A DNA stretch of 64,000 bases from Actinomycetales bacterium (GTDB lineage: Bacteria > Actinomycetota > Actinomycetes > Actinomycetales > Actinomycetaceae): assembly GCA_015655375.1 (NCBI GenBank), contig JAATFD010000024.1:37910-101909 (forward strand). Reading direction: 5' to 3'. The translations under genes were made by a program, and so were the position numbers. The notes below the pieces were generated by a model. It saw only the letters and a list, made by a program, of their open reading frames with translations. It did no database searches and had not been told where the DNA came from. This document shows positions 4,146 through 64,000 of this stretch, piece by piece; the stretch's first letter is position 1; every line of letters starts with the position of its first letter.

Positions 4146-4157
4146 ATCGTATAGGAT
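4146..4157. promoter_or_regulatory. Putative operator ATCGTATAGGAT (near-palindrome) upstream of the 4199 operon
   Basis: Shares the 12-mer ATATATCCTATA (opposite strand) with the site at 14633; 12-bp near-palindrome. Confidence 0.5.
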
Positions 4158-4198
4158 ATATGTTTGGAGCACGCAAGGACGCGAACGAGGAGGAATTC

Positions 4199-5116
4199 AT
4201 GTACACGGTTGAGGATTGGCCGATCGCCTGCAAGGTGAACTTTGGTTCTCTTGCCGAGGACGGCACGCCCATCGCCGACGCGCCTCGAGCAGTGTGGCGA
4301 GACCAGCTGCAACAGATCGCAGAACTCGGATTTACGCACATCGACCCAATGGACGACTGGATCCCCATCGCGGACCTGAGCGAGAAGCGACTTTCGGAAT
4401 ACCGTGATCTTCTGGACGAAGTGGGCCTGAAGACAGCCGCCATCTCGATTGGGCGCAACAGTGTGGTCGACGTCGAGAACGGCGAAAAGAATGTCGCAAC
4501 GATTCACCGGACCATCGATCGGGCGGCGGAGCTCGGGGCAACGATCGTCAACATCGGCTTTCTGCAGGCTCTGACGCCCGCTCAGAAGAAGGCCCTGTGG
4601 TTCTGGCTGGCGGACGGACATCATGACGATCCTGCCTTGCGCGGATTGGCGATAGAACGGGTGCGAGACCTGGCCGACCATGCGCAAAGAGTAGGACTGG
4701 GGATCAGCCTCGAGATCTACGAGGACACTTACATCGGTACTGCGGACGATGCGGTCGCCTTTCTGAAGGATGTCGATCATCCGGCAGTGGGGATCAATCC
4801 GGATATCGGCAACCTCATCCGACTGCACCGGCCGATACCGACCTATCAGGAGATGTACGCGAAGGTGCTGCCGTATGCGAACTACTGGCACATCAAGAAC
4901 TACATCCGTGACGAAGACCCGGCAACGGGGAGCTACATGTCGGCACCGGTTCCCTTGAAGTACGGGGTCGTCAATTACCGCGAGGTCATCCGGCGTGCGT
5001 TGGCTCTGGGCTACTCCGGACCGTTCATGACTGAGCATTACGGGTCCGACTGGCTCGGCGTCGGAGCGGAAAACGCTCAGTACATTCGAGACGTGCTTCG
5101 GTCTTCACTTGCGTGA
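4199..5116 (+). CDS. Sugar phosphate isomerase/epimerase (xylose isomerase-like TIM barrel), candidate beta-keto acid decarboxylase
   Basis: AP-endonuclease-2/xylose isomerase-like features (GLGISLEIYEDTYIGT, GINPDIGNLIRL, YWHIKNYIRD); RBS AGGAGGAATTC before ATG 4199. Confidence 0.8.
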   Translation: MYTVEDWPIACKVNFGSLAEDGTPIADAPRAVWRDQLQQIAELGFTHIDPMDDWIPIADLSEKRLSEYRDLLDEVGLKTAAISIGRNSVVDVENGEKNVATIHRTIDRAAELGATIVNIGFLQALTPAQKKALWFWLADGHHDDPALRGLAIERVRDLADHAQRVGLGISLEIYEDTYIGTADDAVAFLKDVDHPAVGINPDIGNLIRLHRPIPTYQEMYAKVLPYANYWHIKNYIRDEDPATGSYMSAPVPLKYGVVNYREVIRRALALGYSGPFMTEHYGSDWLGVGAENAQYIRDVLRSSLA

Positions 5117-5173
5117 TCGCGTTCGAGACCATCAACAACGAGGCTGTTTCAGCCTTCTCAACGAGGAGAGAAC

Positions 5174-6163
5174 ATGACCAAAGAAATCTCGAGAGTCGCC
5201 GTTGTCGGGGCGGGGTACATGGGCGGAGGTATCGCGCAGTCTCTCGCGCTGGGGGGATATTCCGTCATGATCGCGGACGCTGACGAGGCGAAGACGAAGG
5301 AATCCCTCAAACGGCTTCTGAAAGAGGCGCAAGAATTTGAGGACCAAGGTCTCTATCCCAAAGGGGCGACTCGGCAGATCTCGAAAGGTCTGACCGACGG
5401 AGGCACGATTGAGAACGCAGTCGCAGATGCAGACTTTGTTGAAGAAGCAGTCTTCGAGCTTCCAGACGTGAAGAAAGATGTTCTGTCCAGAATCTCCTCA
5501 GCGGCCCCCGACTATGCGATTATCGGGACCAATACCTCAACGATCCCGGTTCACATCCTCGAGCCTGCCGTCAAGAATCCGGAGCGATTTCTCACCGTAC
5601 ACTTCTCGAATCCCGCGCCCTTCATTCCGGGTGTCGAGCTTGTGGCCAGCAAGGAGACGAGCGCGGAGGCCGTCTCCACCGTGAAGGGAATTCTTGAACG
5701 TTGTGGTCGTTTGGGCGCGCAGGTGGCGGACACCCCCGGCATGGTGCTGAATCGGCTCCAGTATGCTCTTCTCAAAGAGGCCTGCAACGTTGTCGAAGAG
5801 GGCGTGGCCACGATGGAGGACGTTGACATCATCGTGCGCACGACCTTTGGGTTCAGGTTGGGATTCTTTGGCCCGTTTGCAATTGCTGACCAAGCTGGTC
5901 TGGATGTCTATGTCAATTGCTTCAAGACGTTTGAGAGCGCTTATGGCGAGCGCTTGAAAACGCCTCAGCTTCTCGTTGATGCAGTTGAATCCGGGCGACT
6001 CGGGATCAAGAACGGGAAAGGCCTCACCGGAGACTTTGACGAGAGCGAGAAGCAAGAACTGATCGCTTACCGGAACGAGGCCTACGCAAAGATGCGGGAT
6101 CTTGTTCATGAAATGGGTCCTGCTCCAGCGGGATCTCGGTTTTCCAGCACGACGAGCGAGTGA
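5174..6163 (+). CDS. 3-hydroxyacyl-CoA dehydrogenase family NAD-dependent oxidoreductase (L-gulonate-3-dehydrogenase-like class)
   Basis: Rossmann VAVVGAGYMGGGIAQSLALGGYSV; TNTSTIPVHILE; HFSNPAPFIPGVELV; TPGMVLNRLQYALLKEACNVVEEGVAT. Confidence 0.85.
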   Translation: MTKEISRVAVVGAGYMGGGIAQSLALGGYSVMIADADEAKTKESLKRLLKEAQEFEDQGLYPKGATRQISKGLTDGGTIENAVADADFVEEAVFELPDVKKDVLSRISSAAPDYAIIGTNTSTIPVHILEPAVKNPERFLTVHFSNPAPFIPGVELVASKETSAEAVSTVKGILERCGRLGAQVADTPGMVLNRLQYALLKEACNVVEEGVATMEDVDIIVRTTFGFRLGFFGPFAIADQAGLDVYVNCFKTFESAYGERLKTPQLLVDAVESGRLGIKNGKGLTGDFDESEKQELIAYRNEAYAKMRDLVHEMGPAPAGSRFSSTTSE

Positions 6164-6238
6164 TTGGTCGGTGGCGGGAACCAATGTCGGTTCCTGCCAC
6201 CTGTTTTTGACTTGAAAAAGTATATTCAGGGGGTCAAT

Positions 6239-7576
6239 GTGGACTCAAAGCATGTGGTCGTCAATGAGAACGATCTGGTGAAGAAGATTACCCACCATAT
6301 CGTTCCACTCGTCATGGTCCTGTACACGGTTGCGTATGTCGACAGGTCTGTCATTGGATTCGCAAAACTTGAAATGGGCGCGGATGTTGGTCTTTCTGAC
6401 ACCGCCTATGGATTAGGGGCGGGGCTTTTCTTCCTCGGATACTTCCTGTTCGAGGTTCCGTCAAGCTGGGTCATGCCGAAATTTGGCCCTCGTAAATGGT
6501 TCACAAGGATCTTGGTCACGTGGGGCCTTGTGACCATGGCAATGGCATTGACACGAAATTCTGGAATGTTCTATGTTCTTCGATTTGCATTGGGAGTGGC
6601 GGAAGCCGGATTCTATCCAGGAATCCTCTACTACCTCACGCTTTGGTACCCGCAGCGTCATCGGACGAAGGCAACGGGCACGTTCGTCCTTGCCCAAGTT
6701 CTGGCGTTCCTCATCATGAGCCCGATTGCCGGCTGGATGCTCGGTGTCAATTGGTTCGGCCTCAGAGGATGGCACTGGATGTTCATCCTGTGCGGTGCTG
6801 TTGCGGTGCTGTCAGGAATACCAACACTGCTCTTGCTGAGGGATTCTCCGCGCGATGCGAAATGGATCAGTGATTCCGAGGCTGAATGGATTGAGAACGA
6901 GCTTGAGAAGGACAAAAAAGAACTCGGTCAGGTTGAACATGCGAATTCTCTGGCAGCCCTGGGCTCGAAGTACGTCTGGGGATTTGCCCTGTTGTTCTTC
7001 CCGTCCACGGTCGGTGTCTATGGGCTGAGCTTCTGGTTGCCGTCGGTGGTCAGCCGGTTCTCGCCGAGCGACGTGGTGACCGGTTGGCTCTCTGCGATCC
7101 CCTACGTGTTCGGCTTCATCGGAATCCTGGTGACTTCTCGATGGGCGAGCACGTTCAAGGAGAATTGGATCCCGCTTTCGGTGATATTCGTTGGAGCTGC
7201 GGTGGGTGTGGGCTTGGCGGGCGTCGTCTCGGCGCCGATCGCACAACTCTCTGCAATGTCGTTGGCGGCATTTTGCGTCTACTCGATCTCCGGAATATTC
7301 TGGTCTCTTCCAGAGCGGTATCTTGTTGGTGGGAGCGCGGCTGTGGGAATTGCGTTCATCAACTCATTCGGAAACATTGGGGGCTTTGTCGGGCCCTATG
7401 CGGTGGGAGCGATATCTGATGCAACTGGTTCGCCGCAGAATGGAATGTACATGCTCGCGCTTGTCCTTGTGATTGGCGCTGCGGGAACCTTTGTCCTCAA
7501 ACGTGTGTGGGGTGGAAAGAACCCCGTGTCGATCGAGTTCAAGGACGGAGACCTGACTCTGGAAAAGACCTCCTGA
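6239..7576 (+). CDS. MFS transporter, anion:cation symporter (ACS)-like
   Basis: About 12 TM segments; DRSVIGFAKLEMGADVGLSDTAYGLGAGLFFLGYFLFEVPSS is typical of ACS/phthalate-permease-like MFS. GTG 6239 start is tentative. Confidence 0.85.
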   Translation: MDSKHVVVNENDLVKKITHHIVPLVMVLYTVAYVDRSVIGFAKLEMGADVGLSDTAYGLGAGLFFLGYFLFEVPSSWVMPKFGPRKWFTRILVTWGLVTMAMALTRNSGMFYVLRFALGVAEAGFYPGILYYLTLWYPQRHRTKATGTFVLAQVLAFLIMSPIAGWMLGVNWFGLRGWHWMFILCGAVAVLSGIPTLLLLRDSPRDAKWISDSEAEWIENELEKDKKELGQVEHANSLAALGSKYVWGFALLFFPSTVGVYGLSFWLPSVVSRFSPSDVVTGWLSAIPYVFGFIGILVTSRWASTFKENWIPLSVIFVGAAVGVGLAGVVSAPIAQLSAMSLAAFCVYSISGIFWSLPERYLVGGSAAVGIAFINSFGNIGGFVGPYAVGAISDATGSPQNGMYMLALVLVIGAAGTFVLKRVWGGKNPVSIEFKDGDLTLEKTS

Positions 7577-7600
7577 AGGGTATGGATGACTTCGGGAGCT

Positions 7601-7634
7601 GGTGGGGTCGGATCCGAGGGGGTCCGACCCCACC
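7601..7634. terminator. Perfect 12-bp stem / 10-nt loop hairpin between convergent genes
   Basis: GGTGGGGTCGGA-tccgaggggg-TCCGACCCCACC between convergent MFS and GntR genes. Confidence 0.65.
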
Positions 7635-7689
7635 AATTGTCTTCGGGCCCTTGTTCAGGCGGCTCCCGGGAGACCGGGGCGGATGTTCG

Positions 7690-8454
7690 TCAGGTGGTCT
7701 GTTCTCGGGTGCCCGAGTGGATCGGAATTCCTCGAGTGTCGCTCGGCCCCGATCTGAATGCTGAACGGGAGCCCACGTTGGCCAGGTGGTAGTACATCTG
7801 GGAGACCGCCATGTCTGAGTCGTTGTTACGGACGGCGAGCAGGATGCGCTCGTGTTCGTCGACGGCTATCGGAGCATCGGTGGTACCCAGTCCGGTTGTC
7901 TGGCGCATGCGGTGGACGCTGAATGACAGTGAATTGACAGAGCGCTCGATGTATCGATTTCCGCAATGGTCCAGAATCGCTTGGTGGAATGACCAGTCTT
8001 CTTCGAAATAGCGACGCAGGTTCTCGTGTGTGAGTCCGCTCTGCGGTTCGGACACAGCGCGTGCGGCTTCTTGGTGTCGCGCGAAGGCCTCTTCGAGGTC
8101 GGGAAGAAGCTGGTCGACGTTCTTCATTGCACGTTCGATGGCGCCGGTCTCGAGCACCAGACGGGCATCGGCAAGTTCTGCCATCTGCTCGGGCGTCATC
8201 AGGGGGGAGACACGGTATCCGCGGCGAGCGGATCGTCGGACCAAGCCTGTGTGTTCAAGGCGCGCGAGCGCCTCTCGGATCGGAGTCGGTGACACTCCCA
8301 GTGATCGGGCGAGCCCGTCGATGGCGAGGGGCGAGCCAGGCTTCAATTCCCCCCACGTGAGCATGTCGAGCAACACGTCATAGACGTCGTCGGGCAGTGC
8401 TCGGGACCGGATGGGTCCGAGGGCCACGGCTTGGTCGATGGCTTGCTTGGTCAC
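7690..8454 (-). CDS. GntR family transcriptional regulator with FCD-type C-terminal domain
   Basis: wHTH GELKPGSPLAIDGLARSLGVSPTPIREALARLEHTGLVRRSARRGYRVSPL plus FCD-like helical domain. Confidence 0.9.
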   Translation of the reverse strand: MTKQAIDQAVALGPIRSRALPDDVYDVLLDMLTWGELKPGSPLAIDGLARSLGVSPTPIREALARLEHTGLVRRSARRGYRVSPLMTPEQMAELADARLVLETGAIERAMKNVDQLLPDLEEAFARHQEAARAVSEPQSGLTHENLRRYFEEDWSFHQAILDHCGNRYIERSVNSLSFSVHRMRQTTGLGTTDAPIAVDEHERILLAVRNNDSDMAVSQMYYHLANVGSRSAFRSGPSDTRGIPIHSGTREQTT

Positions 8455-8659
8455 TCCCTGATGCTAGCCGCAATCCCTTGCCCTTCGGGGCTGGTGGGTA
8501 CCGGGGCAGGAGACTTCTTGGTGCAGTGCGGTGCTCTCGGCGTCGCGGAGGTGGATAACCGGGCGAGGAGGTCAACCGTCCGGTGTCCCTTGGGCGGCTG
8601 TCGGGCGAACGTCAGAGTGGCCCCGTGAGTTCGGGTGAATGTTCGCATACGCTTGAACC

Positions 8660-9460
8660 ATGCGGATTGGAGGCGCGGGACAATCACCGTGGTCAGTTCC
8701 CGAGGAGGAACAGTTTTCGGAGGCGTCTCTGATCGATGGCTCATCTCCGTCTGCGCGAACCGCGCAGCTGATCCTCGCAGCAATCTCCGGCGGACAATTG
8801 GCGGTGGGGGAGCGCTTGCCGTCCGAGCGGTCGCTTGCGGAGAAGCTGAACGTGGGGCGTTCTGCCGTTCGGGAGGCTCTTTCTGCATTGGAGATCCTGG
8901 GCATCGTTGAAGTCATGCCCGGATCCGGAACGTATGTGCGTGCGTCGACGTCCGCGGTCCTGCCTCGCACACTGTCATGGGGATTGCTGTTGGACAGAGG
9001 GTCACTTTCCGAACTCTCCGAGGTTCGCGGGGCTTTGGAGGTTTGCGCCGCTGTTTCGGTGGCGAGGCGCGCTGTTGATCTTGACTTCTCAACTCTGCGG
9101 ACCACGGTTGACGATCAGCGTCATGCGATCGAGAGCGGCGACACAGCCGGATACGTCAAGGCCGACCAGGCCTTCCATGTCGAGCTCGCCCGTCTCTCGG
9201 AGAATTCTCTGCTGCGATACCTGGCGGCAACGGCCCGAGCCCTCCTGCGAGTCTGGATCGAGCGTCAAGTCCGGGACGAAGAACAAATGCTGACGGCCCT
9301 GCATGAGCATGAGGAGCTTCTCGACGCCCTGGTCAGTGGAGATGAATCCGCTGCAGATGAAGCCATGAGGCGACACATGTCCACGGCCGCCAAGCGGATG
9401 GCAGCGACCAACGTGAGCGAGGGCTACGTTTCGAGTCCTTCCGCGGATGAGCGTTCATGA
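8660..9460 (+). CDS. GntR/FadR family transcriptional regulator
   Basis: ISGGQLAVGERLPSERSLAEKLNVGRSAVREALSALEILGIVEVMPGSGTYV wHTH; FCD C-terminus. Confidence 0.9.
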   Translation: MRIGGAGQSPWSVPEEEQFSEASLIDGSSPSARTAQLILAAISGGQLAVGERLPSERSLAEKLNVGRSAVREALSALEILGIVEVMPGSGTYVRASTSAVLPRTLSWGLLLDRGSLSELSEVRGALEVCAAVSVARRAVDLDFSTLRTTVDDQRHAIESGDTAGYVKADQAFHVELARLSENSLLRYLAATARALLRVWIERQVRDEEQMLTALHEHEELLDALVSGDESAADEAMRRHMSTAAKRMAATNVSEGYVSSPSADERS

Positions 9461-9533
9461 TGTAGCGCGCTGCCTGTCAAGGACAAGAAGCGGCCATCTC
9501 AAATTCGTTAGCTGGGTCACACTTTCGTCGGAT

Positions 9534-9557
9534 AATCGGTCAACCGGTTGACCGATT
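9534..9557. promoter_or_regulatory. 24-bp perfect palindrome AATCGGTCAACCGGTTGACCGATT, putative GntR/FadR operator
   Basis: Exact inverted symmetry read from sequence; lies between the GntR gene and the MFS/apn-like operon. Confidence 0.75.
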
Positions 9558-9629
9558 CTTGAGTCGGCGCTAGCGTTTTGTCATCGGAGCAATGGAGCTT
9601 CGAATGAAGAGGCACCCTAAGGAGTCAAC

Positions 9630-10976
9630 GTGGATTCGTCGGGACTGGAATCTGTGGACGCGGAGACGCAAGTCGAGCGGAGTGAGGAAGCGCCAAGCGG
9701 TCGGTATACGACCTACCTGATAATCGTCGCACTATTTGGCTGGGCACTGGCTGCCTATGACACGAATCTTTTCAACCTTACTATTGCTGATATTACGAAA
9801 GACCTTGGAATTACCTCATCCATGCTTGGTGTGATGGGATTCTTTGTCTATCTCTCAGAATTTGTCATCGCACTATTAATGGGCTATGTGATGGACAAGC
9901 GAGGGCGTAGATATGCGTGGATGACGTGTTTGATAGTGGCTGGCGTATTCACGGGGCTCACCTACTTTGTCCAAGGATTCTGGAGTCTCGTTCTAGTCCG
10001 TGCGATCGCATCGGGATTTGCGAATGCTGAGCTTGCAGTTTCGGTCACTCTTGTCAATGAGCAGGTACCAGCAAAGCGGCGCGGAATGCTGTACTCGATT
10101 GTTCAATCTGGATATACGGTCGGCGTATTTATGGCCTCGGGAATGTATCTTCTTGTCTCTGGTCTCGGGTGGAGATCTGTCTTTCTGTTCGGTGTTTTGC
10201 CGTTGGTCTTGGTGGCGATCGCTCGGAGCGGGGTCAAAGAATCGCCGCGATTTCTGCACATCAAGGCAATTCGTGAGGCCAACGCAAACGGTGATGGCCC
10301 TGAAGTCGCAAGGCTCCAAAAGTTGCATGCCGTCAACATTGACGAGCTGGACAAGGGTGAATTTCGCCAGCTCTTCTCGTCTTCCGGAGATATACGTCGG
10401 ACGACCGTGACGATGTCGATCACTTGGCTTTTGTATGGCAGCTCTTACGTCGCCACGAATATCTATCTTGCCTATTGGATGACTGAAGTAAAAGGATGGA
10501 GCTCGGACAACGTCGCTTCGCTTCTCCTTGTTGGGGGGGCGGCGGGGGTCATTTTCTACCTTGTGGGTGGAGCTCTCGGTGAAAGGTTCGGCAGGAAGAG
10601 CGTATTGGTCGGATCTGCTGTGGCGATCGCGCCGTTGTCAGTGCTGATCCTAGCGAGCAACAGCAACACGATCTTGTTGGTCGCGATCTTCTTGGTGTAT
10701 CAAGCGACAAACGGAACTTGGTCTGGTGTTGGATACACGTACCAAGCAGAAGTGTTTCCCACGAGAGTTCGGGCTTTGGGAGTGGGATGGATGAGCGCGA
10801 TGCTCGTCGGCGGATTCATGCTCGGTTCCATTTTTTGGGCAGGTCTCACGTCTGTCACGAGCCTTCAGGCCACGTGGCTTGTGATTGCGGTGGTCCTTGG
10901 AGCCGCTCAAGCAATTTCTACCTTCTTTCTTCCCAATGTCGCGCCCGGACAAGAGCTGGAGGAGATCGCTCAGTGA
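9630..10976 (+). CDS. MFS transporter (metabolite:H+ symporter / sugar porter-like)
   Basis: 12 TM pattern; MGYVMDKRGRRYAWM, YQAEVFPTRVRALGVGWMSA motifs. Confidence 0.88.
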   Translation: MDSSGLESVDAETQVERSEEAPSGRYTTYLIIVALFGWALAAYDTNLFNLTIADITKDLGITSSMLGVMGFFVYLSEFVIALLMGYVMDKRGRRYAWMTCLIVAGVFTGLTYFVQGFWSLVLVRAIASGFANAELAVSVTLVNEQVPAKRRGMLYSIVQSGYTVGVFMASGMYLLVSGLGWRSVFLFGVLPLVLVAIARSGVKESPRFLHIKAIREANANGDGPEVARLQKLHAVNIDELDKGEFRQLFSSSGDIRRTTVTMSITWLLYGSSYVATNIYLAYWMTEVKGWSSDNVASLLLVGGAAGVIFYLVGGALGERFGRKSVLVGSAVAIAPLSVLILASNSNTILLVAIFLVYQATNGTWSGVGYTYQAEVFPTRVRALGVGWMSAMLVGGFMLGSIFWAGLTSVTSLQATWLVIAVVLGAAQAISTFFLPNVAPGQELEEIAQ

Positions 10977-11023
10977 TGGCGAGGCTACCTGCGTCTTTTC
11001 GGGGATGGGAAAGGAATTCTTTG

Positions 11024-12823
11024 ATGAGTGCACGGTCTGAGAGGGAAGCCGTCTATTTGGCAGAGAACGGATGGTCCTGGATTCTCGAGGGCGATTCGAT
11101 TTCGCAGGTCTCGTGGCATGGTGTTGTGATTTTCGAGTCAGTCCGACCGATGGTGCGCGATCGGGACTGGAACACAATCGCACCTATTTTGTATTCTGAA
11201 CGGCCTCATTCCGATGCCAACGAGCAAGGAGATTGGATTGTCGGGGAAGAGTATCGGTTCTCGGGGGGAACTGCGACCGGGAGATTGAGTCTGTCAGTCA
11301 CGCAGGAATCTCTGAATGTGAAGTATGTTTTTCGCGCGGGAAATGATGTCTTGGTTAATAGAGTCGGAATCACTGCAACAATTCCGTCCGAGCTTGCGGG
11401 AAGCGATCTTGAGTATGCGACAACACGTGGCAGAGTAGGAAGGTCACGTCTTCCGATTACGATATCTCCCTATCAGCCAATTCTTGACATCAGTCAGCTT
11501 GATCTGGCCAGGTCCGGTGTCAAATTCGGTATCTCATTCTTTGGTGACGAATTTGAGATGGAGGATCAGCGGAACTGGTGTGATTCTTCGTTCAAGATAT
11601 ATTCACGACCACTGTCGCTTCCGTTTCCTTATGTGATTAGGGGGGGAGATGAAGTTGTGCAGGAATTGCGATTGTCGGCTCGAGATGATGAGAATCCGGT
11701 GGAGAATCCCGTTGGTGGTGTCGGCGCGGACTGGAAGCTGTCGGAAGAGGGTCGACCGTTCGCGATCCCGAGAATCTCGGTCGGTGCTACGACGTCATTT
11801 TCCAATGCTGTGAACGCATTAGATCTCGAAAAGGTCTCACCGGCGTCATTGTTGGTCGAAGCCTCTGAAGGATTTGACCTCGGGAAAATCCTTCGATCTG
11901 CCATGAGCGAGATTTCTGGGACCTCAATTCCGCTTGATGTGAGATTGTCAATTGATTCACTTGAAGGCCTTCGAGACATGGTTGACAGGGTGTTGTCTTG
12001 CGGTGCCGATATTAGGTCCATATCTGTATTTAGGAAGTCGGTTCACTATACCGATGTTGAGGTTTGGAATTGCCTCGTCGATTCAATAGGTGGTCGTAAT
12101 GTTCAATTGGGATCGGGAACCCGGGGTCATTTTGCGGAGTTCAATAGGAATTACCAAGAATTTCCCGAGTCTTCGAATGAATACTGTTTTTCAATCACTC
12201 CTGAGATGCATGTCAATGATAAGCGTCATATCAATGAGTGTCTGAATTCGATTCGAGACGTCGTTGATTCGGTGCGTCTTCTCGTGGGAAGATCGAAGCT
12301 GTTTATAGGTCCGGTCACCTTGAAGCCGAGGGTTAACACTGTCGCCACGGACATCGTCGTTGTTGACCGTATGACTGAAAGTGGATATGGCGCAGATTGT
12401 GTTCCGGGAAGCGTGGATGAACGCCAATTCAGTGACTGGCTGGGTGCGTGGACTGCGTGGATGCTCATCGAACTCGCACTCAGTGGTGTTGACCAAGTCT
12501 CAATGTTTGAGGCTGGCGGGGCTCGGGGAATTATTTCTGAGTCTGGCGCTCTGTCTCCGGCGGGAATTATATTGCGTGCGTTTTCTGCAAGTCGGGGAAT
12601 GTGGATCGAGCTAATTGATGTCGATGTTCCCCAATGGGTCAGAGTTGCATTGATATCAGACGGGACTCGTCGGCGGTGTCTCGTCATAAATCTTGGTGTC
12701 GAGGACTTCTCGATTTGCTTGCCTCAGTTCGGGGTGAATGAGGAAGTTTTTTGTCGTGCTGAGAGTTTCCAATTGATTGATATGTCGGATTCGGTAGACG
12801 GAATGGTTGTGAGCTCCTCATGA
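11024..12823 (+). CDS. Probable D-apionate lactonase-like protein (three-domain: N-terminal beta domain, TIM barrel, C-terminal beta domain)
   Basis: EFEMEDQRNWCDSSFKIYSRPLSLPFPYVI segment plus operon context (OiaC-like, ApnO-like, tetrulose kinase/isomerases). RBS AAAGGAA before ATG 11024; alternative start 10976. Confidence 0.6.
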   Translation: MSARSEREAVYLAENGWSWILEGDSISQVSWHGVVIFESVRPMVRDRDWNTIAPILYSERPHSDANEQGDWIVGEEYRFSGGTATGRLSLSVTQESLNVKYVFRAGNDVLVNRVGITATIPSELAGSDLEYATTRGRVGRSRLPITISPYQPILDISQLDLARSGVKFGISFFGDEFEMEDQRNWCDSSFKIYSRPLSLPFPYVIRGGDEVVQELRLSARDDENPVENPVGGVGADWKLSEEGRPFAIPRISVGATTSFSNAVNALDLEKVSPASLLVEASEGFDLGKILRSAMSEISGTSIPLDVRLSIDSLEGLRDMVDRVLSCGADIRSISVFRKSVHYTDVEVWNCLVDSIGGRNVQLGSGTRGHFAEFNRNYQEFPESSNEYCFSITPEMHVNDKRHINECLNSIRDVVDSVRLLVGRSKLFIGPVTLKPRVNTVATDIVVVDRMTESGYGADCVPGSVDERQFSDWLGAWTAWMLIELALSGVDQVSMFEAGGARGIISESGALSPAGIILRAFSASRGMWIELIDVDVPQWVRVALISDGTRRRCLVINLGVEDFSICLPQFGVNEEVFCRAESFQLIDMSDSVDGMVVSSS

Positions 12824-13653
12824 AGGATTCTGTAGCTGAATTGGGCGAGCCTGCGCGGTTCGGCCTGAGTACTTACGCCCTCTTCTGGGAGATCTCGTCG
12901 AGGAACCCAGAGCCACTGTCGCTCGAGGCGATGGTCCAACGGGCTGCTGAGGTCGGCTGCGACGTTCTGCAGATTTGCGATCATGCCCCACTCGAGCAGC
13001 GGACGACGAGGGAACTTGCCACCTTGGCGCGGGATGCCAGTGAGATGGGCGTTGAGCTTGAGGTTGGAACCCGTGGAGTGGAGACGGACCACCTCACTCG
13101 CTACCTCGAGATCTGCGATTCCCTGGGGGCCGGGCTCCTGCGTTCGATGGTTCCGGCAGGCACGGATGATCGGTCGCTGGACGCCGCTCGGACCTGCCTC
13201 GAGAAGATCCTGCCTGCGCTGGAGCGGGCCGGTGTGAGTCTGGCGCTGGAGACCTATGAGCAGCTGGCAACGCCGGAGCTGGTCGCGCTGGTGACGGGAC
13301 TTGACAGCGCATGTGCCGGCATCGCCCTCGATCCGGCGAATTGTGTGGCGAATTTCGAGTTGCCGGACGAAGTGATTGATCGGTGTGCGGCGCGCACGGT
13401 CAATCTCCACGTCAAGGACTTTGCCTTCCGACGCCAGGAGGGCTGGGTCGGTTTCACGTACGCAGGTGCCCCTATGGGGGAGGGTCGACTCGATTATTCC
13501 CACGAGCTACGGGCTGTGCGGCCTGTGGAACGGAGGATCACCCAGGTGATTGAGCACTGGCTCCCGTGGCAAGGCGATATTACGACCACCATCAACGAAG
13601 AACGTCGATGGACTGACCAGGCAGTTTCCTATATGAAGGAGAATCAGAAATGA
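12820..13653 (+). CDS. Sugar phosphate isomerase/epimerase family TIM barrel, probable 3-oxo-isoapionate decarboxylase-like
   Basis: FGLSTYALFWEISSRNPEPLSLEAMVQRAAEVGCDVLQICDH; SLALETYEQ; VNLHVKDF; ATGA overlaps with both neighbours. Confidence 0.6.
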   Translation: MKDSVAELGEPARFGLSTYALFWEISSRNPEPLSLEAMVQRAAEVGCDVLQICDHAPLEQRTTRELATLARDASEMGVELEVGTRGVETDHLTRYLEICDSLGAGLLRSMVPAGTDDRSLDAARTCLEKILPALERAGVSLALETYEQLATPELVALVTGLDSACAGIALDPANCVANFELPDEVIDRCAARTVNLHVKDFAFRRQEGWVGFTYAGAPMGEGRLDYSHELRAVRPVERRITQVIEHWLPWQGDITTTINEERRWTDQAVSYMKENQK

Positions 13654-14504
13654 GTGACGATCTGAAGATCGCAGTCATCGGGGCCGGTGGAAAGATGGGC
13701 ATGCGCGTTTCGGCCAACTTGCAGCGCACGAACTGGAATGTCGTTTACACGGAGAAGAGTCCGGCCGGTATTGAGCGAAACAAGGAGCAAGGCCGGGCAA
13801 TCATCTCCAACGAGGAGGCTGTGCCGGATGCCGATGTTGTGATCTTTGCCGTCCCGGACGTCGCTCTTCATGCGGTGACAGGCGAGGTTGTTCCTTTGAT
13901 GCGGGAGGGATCAATGGTTCTGACGCTCGATCCCGCAGCGGCGTACGCGAACCAATTGTTCATGCGCAAGGGGCTGACCTATGTTGTGGCGCACCCCACC
14001 CACCCCTCTGTCTTCCTCGAGCGCACGACCCCGGAGGAATGGGCGGACACCTTTGGTGGAATCGCAGCTCCGCAGAACGCCATCGCCGCAATGTTCACGG
14101 AGTCTGACACATGGCAGCCCATTGCCGAGAAGATCATTGCCACCATGTATGGCCCGGTCATCAAGGTCTATTGGACATCGGTTCATGACCTTGCGGTGTT
14201 GGAGCCCACGCTGAACGAGACGATCGGTTGCATGATCGGGCAGTTCCTCAAGGACGTCATGGATTACGCGGTCGAAGTCACAGACATGGATGAGGACACT
14301 GTGAAGGCAATGTTCTACGGCCATATCTATATCGCTTTGACCAATGCGCTGAGAGGTTCGAATCCGTTCTCTGACGCGTGCCTGCTGGCCATGGATTATG
14401 GCCGTCAGGCGATCATCAAGGAGGACTGGAAGCGGATCTTTGACGACAAGGATCTGGACATCGTGGTCGCCAAGATGCTCAAGCTCGACCATATCGAACG
14501 CTGA
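13650..14504 (+). CDS. Phosphogluconate dehydrogenase C-terminal-domain type oxidoreductase, probable D-apionate oxidoisomerase-like
   Basis: Rossmann KIAVIGAGGKMGMRVSANL; VVAHPTHPSVF; VHDLAVLEPTLNETIGCMIGQFLKDVMDYAV; operon context. Confidence 0.65.
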   Translation: MSDDLKIAVIGAGGKMGMRVSANLQRTNWNVVYTEKSPAGIERNKEQGRAIISNEEAVPDADVVIFAVPDVALHAVTGEVVPLMREGSMVLTLDPAAAYANQLFMRKGLTYVVAHPTHPSVFLERTTPEEWADTFGGIAAPQNAIAAMFTESDTWQPIAEKIIATMYGPVIKVYWTSVHDLAVLEPTLNETIGCMIGQFLKDVMDYAVEVTDMDEDTVKAMFYGHIYIALTNALRGSNPFSDACLLAMDYGRQAIIKEDWKRIFDDKDLDIVVAKMLKLDHIER

Positions 14505-14529
14505 TCCTGCTTCGTGGAGGTGCGCCAAG

Positions 14530-14586
14530 AGAGCGCCCAGCGGCGTGAACCCACGCGGGTCTGTGGGTCGGTCCGCAGGGCGCTCT
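14530..14586 (+). terminator. Hairpin with 9-bp stem after apnO-like gene
   Basis: AGAGCGCCC (14530-14538) pairs with GGGCGCTCT (14578-14586). Confidence 0.5.
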
Positions 14587-14632
14587 CCTGCCATGAATAC
14601 TTGATGCCGGTCGCGAGAGCATCTAGTAATAT

Positions 14633-14644
14633 ATCCTATAGGAA
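14633..14644. promoter_or_regulatory. Putative operator ATCCTATAGGAA (core TCCTATAGGA is a perfect palindrome)
   Basis: Shares the 12-mer ATATATCCTATA with the 4146-4157 region; about 60 bp upstream of the kinase start. Confidence 0.55.
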
Positions 14645-14704
14645 GAAGATCCTTCGGCGGGGTGACGCTGCCCCGGCAGGTAACGAAGCAGATGGAGCAG
14701 AACA

Positions 14705-16429
14705 ATGACGTATCTGGTCAACGATCCGAAGCAGTTCGCCGCTGACAGCCTTCGCGGCATGGCGGCAGCGTTTCCGGCCTACATGCAGCCGGTCCACGGT
14801 GGCGTCGCACGTGCGACGACGAGCCCGGAGGGCCAAGTGAGCATCGTCGTCGGCGGTGGTTCCGGCCACTACCCGGCATTTGCTGGATGGGTGGGTCCTG
14901 GCATGGCTCATGGCGCGGTGTGCGGCAACATCTTTGCCTCTCCCTCGGCTTCACAGGTGACCTCGGTCGTTCGTGCCAGCGACAACGGCGGTGGCACTGT
15001 GCTGCTTTTCGGGAATTATGCGGGCGATTGCCTGCATTTCGGCGCGGCGGCGGACGAATTGCGTTCCGATGGCATCGACACGCGAATTGTGACGATCTCC
15101 GACGACATCGCATCGAATACTCCCGATCACCACGATGACCGCCGAGGAATCGCAGGAGACCTCTTCGTGGTCAAGGTCGCCTGCGCGGCAGCCGCCGAGG
15201 GTCAGAACATCAACGACGTCGAGCGGGTCGCCCATCGCGCGAACGACAGGTCACGCTCATTGGGCGTGGCCTTCACCGGGTGCACGCTTCCCGGTGCAGA
15301 GGCTCCGTTGTTCACAGTCCCGGACGGGACTTATGCCGTGGGTCTGGGTATTCACGGCGAACCTGGAATTTCCTCGCACCCGATGGGCACTGCGGCGGAG
15401 ATTGCTCAGCTGCTGACACAGAGAGTCCTCGCGGAAGAACCGCGTCGCGGTGTGAACGGGTATTCGGGCCGGGTGGTCGTCCTCGTCAATGGCCTGGGCG
15501 CGACCAAGTACGAGGAGCTCTTCGTTCTGTACTCCACGGTCTCTGAACTTCTCGCGCAACAGGACCTGAGCGTCGTTGACGCGGTGGTTGGGGAGCAGGT
15601 GACGTCTCTGGACATGGCAGGGGCGTCTCTGTCGATCCTGTTCCTCGATGAGGAGCTCGAGCGTCTGTGGAAGGCTCCAGCCGATTCTCCGGCCTTCAAG
15701 GCGGGAGCGGTGCCTCCGGCTGAGCGTCGCCAGGTGAAGTTCGACGAGGTCGCCGACGTCATTCGCGTGGGGAGCCCCGAATCTGCTGCCCAGGCTCGCC
15801 GAGCATTGCGGTTCATTGAAGTCCTGGCCGATGTGTCCACCGCCAAGGAGGACGAACTCGGAAGGCTGGATTCGGTGGCCGGTGATGGTGACCACGGCCA
15901 AGGCATGGTTCTGGGAGCAACGGCCGCTCTGGAGGCTGCAACACGCGCCGTGGCTGCGGGCTCTGGGATGCGTGAGCTGTTCTCTCGTGCGGGAGCGGCC
16001 TGGGCCGAGGGGGCCGGCGGAACCTCCGGCGCCGCTTGGGGAACTGCTATTGGGGCCTTCGGAAAGTGCCTGTCGGACGACGAGGCTGCGAGTGCGTCCG
16101 ACCTCGGACGTGCCGGTGTTATTGCGGCACGCGCATTCGAATCGGTCGGAAGTGCGCGCCCGGGAGACAAGACCATGGTCGACGCGACACACCCGTTTGC
16201 GGATGTGCTCGAACGTCGCCTCGAGGACGGTGTGGGACTCCCTCGGGCATGGAAGGAGGCCGCCGACACCGCCGTCAACGCAGCGGCAAGTACGGCCGAC
16301 CTCGTTGCACGCAAAGGGCGTGCTCGCACCCATGGGAACGCGTCCGTGGGACATCCGGATCCGGGAGCTGTGTCGTTCTCGGTGCTCATGGAGGGCATCG
16401 CTGATGAGCTTTCAGCTGGCGGGCGTTGA
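14705..16429 (+). CDS. Dihydroxyacetone kinase family protein (fused DhaK-DhaL), probable L-erythrulose 1-kinase
   Basis: VVGGGSGHYPAFAGWVGPGM, GNYAGDC, GIHGEPG (DhaK); DSVAGDGDHGQGM, GAGGTSGAAWGT, GDKTMVDAT (DhaL); followed by RpiB and TIM homologs. Confidence 0.88.
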   Translation: MTYLVNDPKQFAADSLRGMAAAFPAYMQPVHGGVARATTSPEGQVSIVVGGGSGHYPAFAGWVGPGMAHGAVCGNIFASPSASQVTSVVRASDNGGGTVLLFGNYAGDCLHFGAAADELRSDGIDTRIVTISDDIASNTPDHHDDRRGIAGDLFVVKVACAAAAEGQNINDVERVAHRANDRSRSLGVAFTGCTLPGAEAPLFTVPDGTYAVGLGIHGEPGISSHPMGTAAEIAQLLTQRVLAEEPRRGVNGYSGRVVVLVNGLGATKYEELFVLYSTVSELLAQQDLSVVDAVVGEQVTSLDMAGASLSILFLDEELERLWKAPADSPAFKAGAVPPAERRQVKFDEVADVIRVGSPESAAQARRALRFIEVLADVSTAKEDELGRLDSVAGDGDHGQGMVLGATAALEAATRAVAAGSGMRELFSRAGAAWAEGAGGTSGAAWGTAIGAFGKCLSDDEAASASDLGRAGVIAARAFESVGSARPGDKTMVDATHPFADVLERRLEDGVGLPRAWKEAADTAVNAAASTADLVARKGRARTHGNASVGHPDPGAVSFSVLMEGIADELSAGGR

Positions 16430-16492
16430 GCTCGACGCGCCACGTGGTGGGGACAAGAAATCAAGGAAGTCGATCCAAGAGAGGGAAAGAGC

Positions 16493-16948
16493 ATGGGATT
16501 CCGCGTCGTCGTTGCTGGAGACAGTGCTGGTTATGAGTACAAGGAAGCAATCAAGAAGGACTTGGAGGCAGATCCTCGTGTCGATGAGGTGATCGATGCT
16601 GGGGTCGGTGAGGGAGAAGACACTGACTATCCCCATGTGGCCGTCAAGGGAGCCCGGATCATTGCCGATGGCCAGGCCGACCGCGGCGTGTTCATCTGTG
16701 GCACGGGATTGGGGGTCGCCATAGCCGCCAACAAGGTGAAAGGGATCCGGGCAGGGACAGCGCATGATTCCTACTCGGTCGAGCGTTTGGTCTTGTCCAA
16801 CGACGCACAGGTCCTGTGCATGGGACAGCGCGTGATCGGCCTCGAACTGGCGCGACGGCTGGCGCGTGAGTTCTTCGACTACACCTTCGACCCCGCGTCC
16901 CACTCCGCACCCAAGGTCGCTGCGATCTGCGAGTACGAGGAGGACTGA
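16493..16948 (+). CDS. RpiB/LacAB family isomerase, probable D-erythrulose-4-phosphate isomerase
   Basis: [67 protein letters not shown]. Confidence 0.9.
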
Positions 16949-16949
16949 G

Positions 16950-17693
16950 ATGCTGTGGGTGGGCACCAGTTGGAAGATGAACGGGACGATCGACTTTGCG
17001 CGCGAGTATGCGTGGAGGCTCATGGCGGCGGACGCTTCGCAGTGGGAAGGGATTCAGGCGTTCATCATTCCTCCGGCGACCGCACTCGATGCCGTTCGCG
17101 GTGTCCTTGGAGACAACGGGCCGATTCTCCTCGGCGCGCAGAACGCGCATTGGGAGGACAGCGGTGCGTGGACGGGTGAGGTGTCTGTTCCGCAGGTTGC
17201 CGATGCCGGCGCGCAGATGGTGGAAGTGGGCCACTCTGAGCGGCGTCAGCATTTCGGGGACTCCGATGAGGTCGTCAATCTGAAGGTTCGCGCGATCATC
17301 GGTCACGGTCTTCGTCCGGTGCTATGCATCGGGGAACCGGCGGAGGTCTTCGAGGCCGGTCGCTCGATCGAGTACATCACGGCGCAGGCTGACTCTGCTC
17401 TCCAGGGGGTCGATCCCTCGTCGGTGATCCTCGCCTACGAGCCGATCTGGGCGATCGGGGAGCACGGTCGGGAGCCGCGAAGGTCGGACCTCGTCAGGGC
17501 ATTCGCGGCCCTTGGCGAGCGCTACTCAAGCGACGTCACTGCCGTCGTCTACGGAGGTTCAGTGAATGCGGGGAATGCCGCAGATCTGTTGACGATCCCT
17601 GGCGTGGAGGGATTGTTCGTGGGACGCGCAGCCTGGCGCGTCCCGGGGTACCTCGAAATTCTTCGGATTGCGAGTCGTTCTCTTCGCGCCTGA
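16950..17693 (+). CDS. Triosephosphate isomerase family protein, probable L-erythrulose-1-phosphate isomerase
   Basis: LWVGTSWKMNGT, VEVGHSERRQHFGD, ILAYEPIWAIGEHGREP, VYGGSVNAGNAADLL. Confidence 0.88.
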   Translation: MLWVGTSWKMNGTIDFAREYAWRLMAADASQWEGIQAFIIPPATALDAVRGVLGDNGPILLGAQNAHWEDSGAWTGEVSVPQVADAGAQMVEVGHSERRQHFGDSDEVVNLKVRAIIGHGLRPVLCIGEPAEVFEAGRSIEYITAQADSALQGVDPSSVILAYEPIWAIGEHGREPRRSDLVRAFAALGERYSSDVTAVVYGGSVNAGNAADLLTIPGVEGLFVGRAAWRVPGYLEILRIASRSLRA

Positions 17694-17904
17694 GGAGGCC
17701 ATGGGCTCGGCGCGGGTTGGGCGGGACACCATATCGGGTTCCGGTTCTGTCCAATCCGCGCCGTCTTGACCTCCGTGGTCTCGCCGATCCACATGGATGA
17801 TTCCGGGCCGAGTCCTCCCTGCTCGTGGAGGTGATCCGAGAATTGTCCGCTTCCTCATTCGTCATCCGGAGGGCCCCGATTCCGGGCGGTAGAATCGCCT
17901 CATC

Positions 17905-19434
17905 ATGACTGTCACCACCGCAACTGGCTCGGACATCCGTGTCCGCTTCTGCCCCTCGCCCACCGGTACCCCTCACGTCGGGATGGTGCGCACCTGCCTG
18001 TTCAACTGGGCGTATGCGCGCCACACGGGCGGCACCTTCGTCTTCCGCATCGAGGATACCGACACCGCGCGTGACTCCCAGGAGTCCTTTGACCAGATCC
18101 TCGACTCCCTCGACTGGCTCGGCCTCGACTGGGACGAGGGCATCGGCAAGGGCGGCCCGCATGGCCCTTACCGCCAATCGGAGCGCATGGACACTTACCA
18201 CGCGGTCGCCGACAAGCTCTTGGCCGGTGGCTACGCCTACGAGGCCTTCTCGACGTCCGAGGAGGTCGAGGCTCGGCACAAGGCCAAGGGTGAGGATCCC
18301 AAGCTCGGCTACGACGGCTTTGACCGCGACCTCACGCCCGAGCAGGTCGCGGCCTATCGCGCCGAAGGCCGTCGCCCCGTGCTGCGCATGCGCATGCCCG
18401 AGGACGACATCACCTTCACGGACCTGATCCGTGGCGACATCACCTTCCACGCGGGATCGGTCCCGGACTACGTCATCGTGCGCGCCAACGGGGATCCGCT
18501 CTACACGCTGGTCAACCCCGTGGACGACGCCCTCATGGAGATCACCCACGTCCTGCGCGGGGAGGACCTATTGTCGTCGACGCCGCGCCAGATCGTGCTC
18601 TACCACGCGTTGGAGGACCTCGGCATCGCGCAGTTCATGCCGCGCTTCGGCCACCTGCCCTACGTGATGGGAGAGGGCAATAAGAAGCTTTCCAAGCGTG
18701 ATCCGGAGTCGAACTTGTTGCTCCACCGCGACCATGGAATGATCCCGGAGGGCCTGCTCAACTACCTGGCACTACTGGGTTGGTCGATCGGTCCCGATCG
18801 CGATGTCTTCTCTCGTGAGGAGTTCGTCAAGGCGTTCGATATCGCCGATGTCAATCCGAACCCGGCGCGTTTCGACCTCAAGAAGTGCACGGCGATCAAC
18901 GCGGAGCACATTCGCGAGCTGGATCCGGAGGACTTCCGTGGGCGCATCGTCCCCTTCCTCCACGAGGAAGGAATGGTCAGCGGAGATTCCTTCGATGCGC
19001 TGAATGCCCGCGAGCAGGAGATCCTCACCGCAGCCTCACCTCTCATCCAGACGCGCATCCAGGTCCTGGGGGAGGCTCCGGGCATGCTCGGTTTCCTCTT
19101 CGTCGGCGACGTCGATCTCGAGGTCGATGAGAAGGCCGTCGCCAAGCTCAAGGACACGGCTCCGGCCGTCCTCGACGCTGCGCTGCCCATCCTGGAGACC
19201 ACGGGCATCGGCGACGGCGTCGAGCAGTCCTTCCGTGCGGAGGACCTCGAGGCTGGTCTGCGCGAGGCGATCGTCGAGGGCATGGGAATCAAGCCGCGTC
19301 TGGCCTTCGGACCGCTGCGAGTGGCGGTGACGGGTCGTCAGGTGTCTCCACCGCTCTTCGAGTCCATGGCGATCCTCGGACGGTCCTCGACGGTGGACCG
19401 TGTGCGGGCCCTGCGCAAGCAGCTGGACGCGTGA
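17905..19434 (+). CDS. gltX: Glutamyl-tRNA synthetase
   Basis: [58 protein letters not shown]. Confidence 0.97.
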
Positions 19435-19454
19435 ATCGCTGACCGCGTGAGCAT

Positions 19455-19482
19455 CCCCACGCCTCCCGGATTTGGCGTGGGG
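19455..19482 (+). terminator. Hairpin CCCCACGCC-tcccggattt-GGCGTGGGG downstream of gltX
   Basis: 9-bp perfect stem, pyrimidine/T-rich stretch downstream. Confidence 0.6.
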
Positions 19483-19547
19483 CCTGCTCTCGGGTACTGT
19501 TTTCTTTCGTCGCCGACAGTGAGTAATCGATTGTCGCGATACCACCA

Positions 19548-19619
19548 TGGGGTATGGTGTAATCGGCAGCACGAGTGATTCTGGTTCACTTAGTCTAGGT
19601 TCGAGTCCTGGTACCCCAG
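19548..19619 (+). tRNA. tRNA-Gln (CTG)
   Basis: Cloverleaf: TGGGGTA/TACCCCA acceptor, anticodon loop TTCTGGT, GGTTCGAGTCC T-arm. Confidence 0.93.
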
Positions 19620-61500: not shown

Positions 61501-63213
61501 ACGATCTCACGCGGACGGGCTGGATTGAGTCGTGCGCGCATCGAATGTGGTCGACGCTTGGGTTGGTTCCTGGGCGCCTGTGTCTCAGGCTGCTGCGGTG
61601 TGGGTCTTGCGGAGGTTGTAAGCGGCCGCTGCGAGGTGCAGTTCGCTTCGGGCCGCCTCAATTCCTCGCCGGGAGAATCTGCTCAGGATGGTTTTAAGAG
61701 TTCCGATGCTGGGTTCAACGGTCGCGCCGCGTCGCTTGTCGGCCGCGACACCTTCCGGGGCTCGGAGTCGGTGGACCATCACCTCTCGCGTCGTCGCGCC
61801 AGCCGGGGGCGGCCCGGCGGTAGGCGACTGCGCTGCGGCGGCAGCCTGTTCCCGGCTTTTGCCTAGTGCGATGAGACGGTCCGGACCGGGCGCGTCTAGG
61901 TTGCTGTTGCTGCAGTAGCCGGCGTCGGCCAGTATGACCCCGATCCGATGCTCGGACGAACCGGTTGCCGTGTGTATGGCAGCGGCTGCGTCGACTGCGG
62001 CGGTCATCATCGGCACGAACGAACCCATGTCATTGGGATTCCGGTTCACGTCGACCGCGGCGATGACATGATCACTGGTGACCGCGATCTGTGCGTTGTA
62101 TCCCTGAAGAAACCCGCGCCGGGTGGGCATCACCCGTGAGTCCGGGTCGGTGATGTTCGCAGCAGTCTTGGGCAGGTTCTTCGCGGGAACCTGCTGATCG
62201 CCACGCGCGTCTGCTGCCTTCACCGCCGCGGCTTCAGCTGCGGCAACGACACGGCGGGCCCTGATGATTCGAGAGTGTTCCTCGGTCGCCACCGGCGGAG
62301 CACCCATGGGCTTCTTCCCCGCAGCGATCAGCGCGGCCCGGCGATCGAGCTTGGCCTGATGGTCGCGCAGCTCCCGTTCCAGGTGCGCCCGAGCTTCAGC
62401 AAGCCGCAGTGGGCCGTCCGGGATCCGGCCGCGCACCGGCGCACCAGCACGTGATGCCTCCAGCCGAGCCCGGGCTGCCGTCTTCCGCGCGTCGTCGTCA
62501 GCATCCAGATGCCGCTGCTGTCGGGCCAGTTCCGCCGCCGCGCGTCGGATCCGCTCCGGCCTGCCAGACCGGTCGGCCAATGCCCCAGGAACACGATCAC
62601 TATCGGGCTCGCCCTGCGCGTTCTCGGCCGCGTCCACGACCGCTGCTTCCTCCACGATGTCAGCGGTGATCTGCACGGCATGCTGGCCGAACCAGTCCTG
62701 TCCCCGGTTCGCGTCGATCGACGCGTTCGCGGGAATCTTGGTGCCATCGATCGCGATCGTGCCGAACCGGGCAAGTCCTGCTCGTGCCGCGATCATCAAC
62801 ACCTGCGCGAAAGCCCAGCGAACGCGTCCTCAGAGCCCGCCCGGGATCTCGCGATCGTCGCATGATCCGGGATGTCTGAAGCGCAGAGCACCTTGAATGC
62901 GACATCCGTGTGGCAAAGCCGCTCGATCTGCCGAGACGAACGCACCCCACGGCAGTATGCATAAACGAGCATGCCCAAAAGCATTCGCGGGTCATACCCT
63001 GCCGCCCCGACCCCACCCCGAGCGGAGAGACACCTCGAACGCCGACACGTCGAGGGTCTCGACGACATCGAGGACGAACCACACCAAGTGATCTTCTGGC
63101 AGCCAATCCCGCATATCCGGGGGCAGAAGAAACACCTGATCACGCAGCACAGGACGGTAATCGCGAGCCATGCCCAATTCTCCCAAGACCACGGTTCGCG
63201 ACCCCACGGGACA

Positions 63214-63233
63214 CGGCATTCTGCGACAGGCTC
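63214..63233. repeat. Terminal inverted repeat, right
   Basis: CGGCATTCTGCGACAGGCTC, exact reverse complement of left TIR. Confidence 0.9.
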
Positions 63234-63237
63234 CGTA

Positions 63238-64000
63238 CTCGAGGAACGGCACGAACTCCGCCCAGGAGCTGCGCCAGAGCTGGATGATTGACGGGTAGCG
63301 TTGGCCCCCCACTCGGCGGCGAACTCCTCGAACCGGTCTTTCGCCGCCGCCTCGGACGGCGCCGTATAGACCGGCTTCAGCGCCTTCACGATTGCATCCC
63401 GATGCTGCCGGCCGGCGTAACGGAAGCTGTTGCGGATCAGGTGGACGATGCACTGCTGCACGACCGCCTGCTGCCAGGTGGTGTTGATCGCCTCTGGGAG
63501 TCCCTTGAGCCCGTCGCAGACAGCGATGAGCACATCCTCGACGCCCCGGTTCTTCAGCTCGGTGAACACCTGCAACCAGAACCTCGCACCCTCACCGCCG
63601 TCACCAGCCCAGATCCCGAGAATCTCTCGCTCCCCAGCCGTGGTGACGCCCATCACGACATAGAACGGGGTGTCCCGCACCTGCCCATCATGGACTTTCA
63701 CGACGATCGCGTCGACGAAGATCACCGGATAGAGCGCATCCAGCGGACGAAAAGCCCATTCGGCGAGCTCACCGGTGACTTTCTCGGTGATGCGACTGAT
63801 GGTGTCTTTGGAGACCTTCGCCCCGTAGACCGCGTCGAAGTGCGCCGCGATCTCCCCAGTCGTCAACCCCCGTGCGGTCAGTGACAGCACAATCTGGTCG
63901 ACGCCGTCCAAGCGGCGCTTCCGCTTGGGCACGATCACCGGTTCGAACGACCCATCCCGATCCCTGGGGACCTCGATCTCTACCGGACCGATCTCGGTCA
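63238..64000 (-). mobile_element. IS256-family transposase N-terminal/central fragment (continues beyond window; frameshift near 63303)
   Basis: RRLDGVDQIVLSLTARGLTTGEIAAHFDAVYGAKVSKDTISRITEKV...PLDALYPVIFVDAIVVKVHDGQV...NRGVEDVLIAVCDGLKGLPEAI, then RYPSIIQLWRSSWAEFVPFLEY in a shifted frame. Confidence 0.92.

Follow-up and report, generated by a model that had tools for sequence, protein, structure and literature searches.

A candidate aldonate-to-tetrulose module shared between two operons of an Actinomycetales genome

D-Apionate is reportedly taken to L-erythrulose in a pathway comprising ApnO, OiaC, LerK, LerI and DerI, and L-ascorbate is said to be degraded via 2-carboxy-L-lyxonate and a PdxA-family enzyme to L-lyxonate, and further to alpha-ketoglutarate. 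In a related route, L-gulonate is converted to L-xylulose by L-gulonate 3-dehydrogenase (CRYL1) and 3-dehydro-L-gulonate decarboxylase (PMC12435205), while the L-threonate/D-erythronate pathway involves LtnD, OtnI, OtnK and OtnC (PMC12540250). Here we describe a locus in a 64,000-nt stretch of an Actinomycetales bacterium (Actinomycetaceae; assembly GCA_015655375.1, contig JAATFD010000024.1, positions 37,910 to 101,909; hereafter, the window), in which genes of a xylose-isomerase-like TIM-barrel protein (XI), a dehydrogenase of the 3-hydroxyacyl-CoA dehydrogenase fold (HCDH) and a transporter share an operator-like palindrome with a LerK–DerI–LerI operon. Together they very probably constitute a conserved, co-regulated sugar-acid module acting as an aldonate-to-tetrulose route. 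What is new here is a variant of the known logic of aldonate 3-oxidation and decarboxylation (L-gulonate to L-xylulose, apionate to L-erythrulose). The features of the locus are as follows.

4146–4157, strand not assigned: operator-like palindrome ATCGTATAGGAT upstream of XI, one mismatch from the consensus ATCCTATAGGAT
4199–5116, plus strand: XI, 305 aa, ATG start; xylose-isomerase-like TIM barrel (PF01261, 106 bits)
5174–6163, plus strand: HCDH, 329 aa (PF02737, 150 bits, and PF00725, 77 bits); candidate NAD-dependent sugar-acid 3-dehydrogenase
6239–7576, plus strand: ACS-family MFS transporter, GTG start (TIGR00893, 284.6 bits against a cut-off of 395); candidate aldonate importer
7690–8454, minus strand: GntR/FCD regulator (PF00392 and PF07729), hereafter GntR 7690; candidate repressor for ATCCTATAGGAT
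14633–14644, strand not assigned: operator-like palindrome ATCCTATAGGAA upstream of LerK, one mismatch from ATCCTATAGGAT
14705–16429, plus strand: LerK, DAK-type kinase (PF02733 and PF02734; PRK14479, 702 bits, above the cut-off); candidate L-erythrulose 1-kinase
16493–16948, plus strand: DerI, RpiB-type isomerase (TIGR02133, above the cut-off); candidate D-erythrulose-4-phosphate isomerase
16932–17693, plus strand: LerI, TIM homologue (PF00121, 213 bits); candidate L-erythrulose-1-phosphate isomerase

The set of XI, HCDH and ACS-type MFS, pointed out in a first-pass annotation of the window, is real by domain matches and by co-directional layout, with all three genes on the plus strand and intergenic gaps of 57 and 75 bases. 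TIGR00893 represents the D-galactonate-transporter subfamily, and the MFS at 6239 scores under its cut-off. The same annotation claimed a palindrome common to this trio and the tetrulose kinase/isomerase operon, and the sites at 4146 and 14633 bear it out. With operator sites defined as near-palindromes ATCCTATAGGAT with at most one mismatch, two are found in the window against 0.02 expected, and three in the entire 2.77-Mb genome. The third was rejected as a further regulon member: it sits within the coding open reading frame of an ABC ATPase. The earlier picture is refined in that the second site directly precedes LerK (14705) and not the OiaC/ApnO genes (12820–14504), which form a separate unit in the window; hence, within the apionate cluster, LerK–DerI–LerI appears to be transcribed from a promoter of its own.

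The distribution of the operator follows that of the regulator. Within 200 bases 5' of XI, ATCCTATAGGAT is found in 17 of 28 loci carrying the GntR 7690 family and in none of 51 loci lacking it; upstream of LerK the respective counts are 10/18 and 0/41. Each of 89 control palindromes of equal composition scores 0. Chance occurrence of the palindrome was rejected on the window expectation, the three-site genome count and these controls. As the operator is confined to loci that encode a member of the GntR 7690 family, and as the controls yield nothing, GntR 7690 is the likely regulator, and the XI trio and LerK–DerI–LerI likely form one regulon under its control. The regulon, as predicted from sequence, is conserved across several Actinomycetota families.

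Homologues of XI were collected from genome contigs (73 loci), plasmids and whole genomes, giving 78 loci in all, and neighbours were counted within 8 kb of XI. The first-pass annotation had named homologous operons consistently devoid of a tetrulose kinase or isomerase as a pattern contrary to its proposal; instead, LerK is near XI in 57 of the 78 loci, LerI in 17 and DerI in 13, and XI and the kinase are the most constant members of the loci. In a set of 297 actinobacterial genomes, four encode a close HCDH homologue, and these are the very four with XI. A close LerK homologue is encoded in 15 of the genomes, including the four with XI, where it stands beside that gene. Leaving out the genome of the window and ignoring kinship, we put the probability that all three remaining XI genomes would be among the 14 remaining LerK genomes at about 9e-5. 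The two halves of the system are also joined physically: in locus L084 (genome G008) XI, LerK, DerI, HCDH, SDR, MFS and LerI form a single co-directional run behind a copy of the operator, and in L083 (genome G075) LerI–DerI–LerK–GntR and XI–HCDH–GntP diverge around a perfect operator. On pSymB of S. meliloti the gene order is PdxA–TctCBA–XI–LerK.

The dehydrogenase beside XI alternates among three unrelated folds, PdxA (42 loci), HCDH (16) and a FabG-like SDR (16), with at least eight changes on the XI tree. All three families oxidise beta-hydroxy acids, and HCDH and FabG-type SDRs classically accept different configurations. HCDH and PdxA occur together in one locus only (Fisher p = 2e-5, uncorrected for kinship). 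The transporters of XI loci are of sugar-acid or carboxylate types, namely TctABC (TctA in 39 loci), ACS-MFS (15) and GntP of the gluconate family (5), and lactonase families SMP-30 and Amidohydro_2 are present in some XI operons. ApnO and OiaC are found in none of the 78 neighbourhoods. Dependence of the trio on apionate genes was therefore rejected, and the XI route would be a separate entry to L-erythrulose.

The D-apionate pathway is among the closest of the described systems: its LerK–LerI–DerI end module is formed here by the identical genes, and in both schemes the step ahead of the kinase falls to a TIM-barrel enzyme. The differences are the HCDH-fold dehydrogenase in place of the oxidoisomerase ApnO, a different operator, and XI being a remote relative of the OiaC-like protein encoded at 12820. 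The CRYL1 route shares the predicted chemistry, with an HCDH-superfamily enzyme oxidising an aldonate at C3 and decarboxylation giving a ketose one carbon shorter; it starts, however, from a C6 acid and yields L-xylulose in animals, whereas here a C5 acid would probably give a tetrulose, the candidate decarboxylase being a TIM barrel and the kinase of the DAK type. The L-ascorbate pathway has in common with some XI operons the PdxA and amidohydrolase lactonase families, and its substrates overlap chemically, but it involves neither XI nor LerK, and a whole-genome search found no PdxA in the genome of the window. Finally, the L-threonate/D-erythronate pathway resembles the predicted route in that a 3-oxo sugar acid is decarboxylated and that a dehydrogenase, an isomerase and a kinase take part, but it leads from C4 acids to dihydroxyacetone phosphate, and there the acid itself is phosphorylated, by a kinase of the DUF1537 family; a search of the whole genome of the window found no kinase of that family.

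HCDH shows the pattern of 3-hydroxyacyl-CoA dehydrogenases, comprising the N- and C-terminal 3HCDH domains and the catalytic Ser, His-Glu and Asn. Ser122, His143 and Glu155 are invariant and Asn193 nearly so in 12 homologues; we take these four to be the catalytic residues, by equivalence to human 3-hydroxyacyl-CoA dehydrogenase. Among the models listed, HCDH stays under every acyl-CoA equivalog cut-off, the best score being 192 bits against 508. Its assignment to a class with L-gulonate 3-dehydrogenase holds at the level of the superfamily, but CRYL1 is not the nearest PDB relative: the best matches are 3mog (149.8 bits) and 4om8 (146.1 bits), and CRYL1 (3f3s, 104.6 bits) ranks under many others. 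Among the titles and abstracts listed in a literature search, none dealt with a pentonate 3-dehydrogenase.

The full length of XI is matched by 5tnv (456 bits), a Mg2+-bound M. smegmatis protein without a named function, on which our literature search found no paper; in the fold alignment the two are 65% identical. The AlphaFold model of XI (pLDDT 94) is structurally closest to 5tnv, then to UlaE and D-tagatose/D-psicose 3-epimerases. Glu172, Asp202, His231 and Glu279 are invariant in 34 aligned homologues and, by analogy with the ketose 3-epimerases (DTE/DPE/UlaE), correspond to the metal-site pattern of the superfamily. Arg86, Arg208, Arg211, Lys233 and Arg237 are invariant as well, and could hold a carboxylate.

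These observations suggest a catabolic regulon for a sugar acid, with the XI trio as its upper half and LerK–DerI–LerI as the lower one. The MFS would take up an aldonate, most likely an L-pentonate (L-xylonate, L-lyxonate or L-arabinonate), and HCDH would use NAD+ to oxidise the C3 hydroxyl to a 3-oxo acid. XI, as a divalent-metal TIM barrel, would then convert the beta-keto acid to L-erythrulose and CO2, and LerK would phosphorylate L-erythrulose at C1. LerI would yield D-erythrulose-4-phosphate, and DerI, D-erythrose-4-phosphate, entering the pentose phosphate pathway. GntR 7690 would repress both transcription units via ATCCTATAGGAT, with the substrate or an intermediate relieving repression. 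A tetrulose is suggested as the product because a pair of TIM-like and RpiB-like isomerases, reportedly C4-specific, acts after the kinase; loss of one carbon from a C5 acid would therefore give erythrulose, and only from an L-pentonate would this be the L form. Such acids do occur in nature, L-lyxonate and L-xylonate being formed from ascorbate via 2,3-diketogulonate (PMC11066805; PMC6225978). For this scheme as a whole (C3 oxidation of a 3-hydroxy sugar acid that is probably an L-pentonate, decarboxylation by XI, phosphorylation of the L-erythrulose by LerK) we consider the chances about even, and we are equally divided on decarboxylation of 3-oxo-L-pentonate by XI in particular. The central idea of the first-pass annotation, a sugar-acid branch apart from apionate and feeding an L-erythrulose kinase, stands, given linkage, co-occurrence, the operator and aldonate-type transporters, while a pentonate as substrate and decarboxylation as the task of XI stay proposals.

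Several facts weigh against this scheme. No decarboxylase of known function is detectable among the relatives of XI, and as the folds next after 5tnv are ketose 3-epimerases, homology does not show decarboxylation by XI; compared one to one with the OiaC-like 12820, XI gives a weak match (E = 5e-5, 22% over 179 aa). Moreover, XI is retained where the dehydrogenase is PdxA, of a family usually decarboxylating by itself, which may mean either that two carboxyl groups have to be removed, as from a 2-carboxy-pentonate, or that XI is no decarboxylase. The mutual exclusion of HCDH and PdxA is not significant once kinship is removed, so that for the swap of HCDH, PdxA and SDR we claim linkage only. 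The roles of LerK, LerI and DerI are candidate assignments from family and context, and DerI scores 146 bits with its own model NF051858, under the cut-off of 240. Finally, distant XI homologues in four Streptomyces loci (L018, L020, L028, L030) lie among other sugar-metabolism genes without LerK, so the function of the XI family may differ in distant branches.

Some of these facts would fit XI being a 3-epimerase or an isomerase. A D-pentonate would then be oxidised at C3 and decarboxylate spontaneously or via PdxA to D-erythrulose, which XI would turn into L-erythrulose for LerK; or else XI would interconvert keto acids, as OtnI does. This is favoured by the nearest folds and sequence profiles, which belong to ketose 3-epimerases and share the Glu-Asp-His-Glu metal site of XI, and by the persistence of XI beside PdxA; D-pentonates are also commoner than L-pentonates. 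On the other hand, loci with HCDH or the SDR have no candidate decarboxylase besides XI, scores with NCBIfam epimerase models (23–41 bits) are far under their cut-offs of 200–317, and making L-erythrulose from D-erythrulose ahead of the kinase would be a detour, as D-erythrulose-4-phosphate is a later intermediate; we hold an epimerase to be unlikely. Nor do we think it likely that the substrate is branched, that is, isoapionate or 2-carboxy-L-lyxonate/-xylonate, oxidised beside the branch and losing one or two carboxyl groups to give L-erythrulose. Such chemistry has a known neighbour, OiaC reportedly decarboxylating 3-oxo-isoapionate to L-erythrulose; PdxA and an amidohydrolase are reportedly found together in the ascorbate pathway, and in three loci (L009–L011) XI, PdxA and an Amidohydro_2 lactonase-type gene are in one run with LerK–DerI–LerI. 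2-Carboxy-L-threo-pentonate and its lactones are reported products of ascorbate (PMC6225978). The absence of PdxA from the genome of the window argues against a branched acid, as does that of the amidohydrolase from most of the 78 loci. We know of no free natural source of isoapionate.

It is still less probable that HCDH and XI belong to some other pathway, for acyl-CoA or for C4/C6 acids, and have merely the regulator in common with LerK. The top-scoring models of HCDH are indeed those of 3-hydroxyacyl-CoA dehydrogenases, albeit under the cut-off, and threonate genes (DUF1537 kinase, LtnD) occur in some XI loci; however, the acyl-CoA cut-offs are all missed by a wide margin, the operons that we examined contain no further acyl-CoA genes, the genome of the window has no DUF1537 kinases, and L084 unites the genes with LerK–DerI–LerI in one operon. 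As for LerK, it was rejected as a mere dihydroxyacetone kinase of the cell, a separate two-subunit DhaK/DhaL being encoded elsewhere in the genome.

Returning to the L-pentonate scheme, if it is true, it would provide a function for the solved 5tnv enzyme family, found in Actinomycetota and Alphaproteobacteria, an extra entry of C5 sugar acids to the pentose phosphate pathway via L-erythrulose, and a way for microbes to use up the L-pentonates left by the decay of ascorbate. The scheme makes a clear-cut prediction that would cost little to test: which enzymes take part is given by the operator and the operon, and which product to expect, by the kinase. A broader version, which we put forward tentatively and rather doubt, is that the three dehydrogenases (HCDH and the FabG-like SDR for opposite C3 configurations, PdxA for carboxylated acids) converge on a single 3-oxo-L-pentonate, which a metal-dependent TIM-barrel decarboxylase, new to science and of the 5tnv family, converts to L-erythrulose. 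This would make a widespread bacterial L-pentonate route, including L-xylonate, L-lyxonate and 2-carboxy-L-pentonates from vitamin C decay.

Some XI loci have further features. In the Actinotignum loci L009–L011 (about 7200–19600), TctAC, XI, PdxA, two MFS, the Amidohydro_2 lactonase-type gene, LerK, DerI and LerI all face one direction, and these clusters may be operons for 2-carboxy-L-pentonate from ascorbate breakdown. Two nearby XI-cluster paralogues are present in L016, L017, L024 and L026; those of L016, L017 and L024 (Acetobacteraceae) flank an ACS-type MFS. A DUF1537 kinase is close to XI in L064, L070 and L077, accompanied in the latter two by an L-threonate-dehydrogenase-like gene; these loci would link C4 and C5 acid catabolism. 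In a Nesterenkonia operon (L008, 11998–12915), a D-2-hydroxyacid dehydrogenase gene immediately follows HCDH.

Elsewhere in the window, a perfect 18-base palindrome CGGTCAACCGGTTGACCG (GGTCAACCGGTTGACC at 9538) is located upstream of the MFS gene at 9630, near a second GntR/FCD regulator (8660–9460), and probably serves the apionate unit as its operator (9537–13653 region). Between this MFS and the OiaC-like gene, positions 11033–12823 encode a 596-aa protein without a Pfam match, which may be an apionate lactonase or an enzyme that processes glycosides. Transposase-like open reading frames are seen at 61585–63938, toward the right end of the window.

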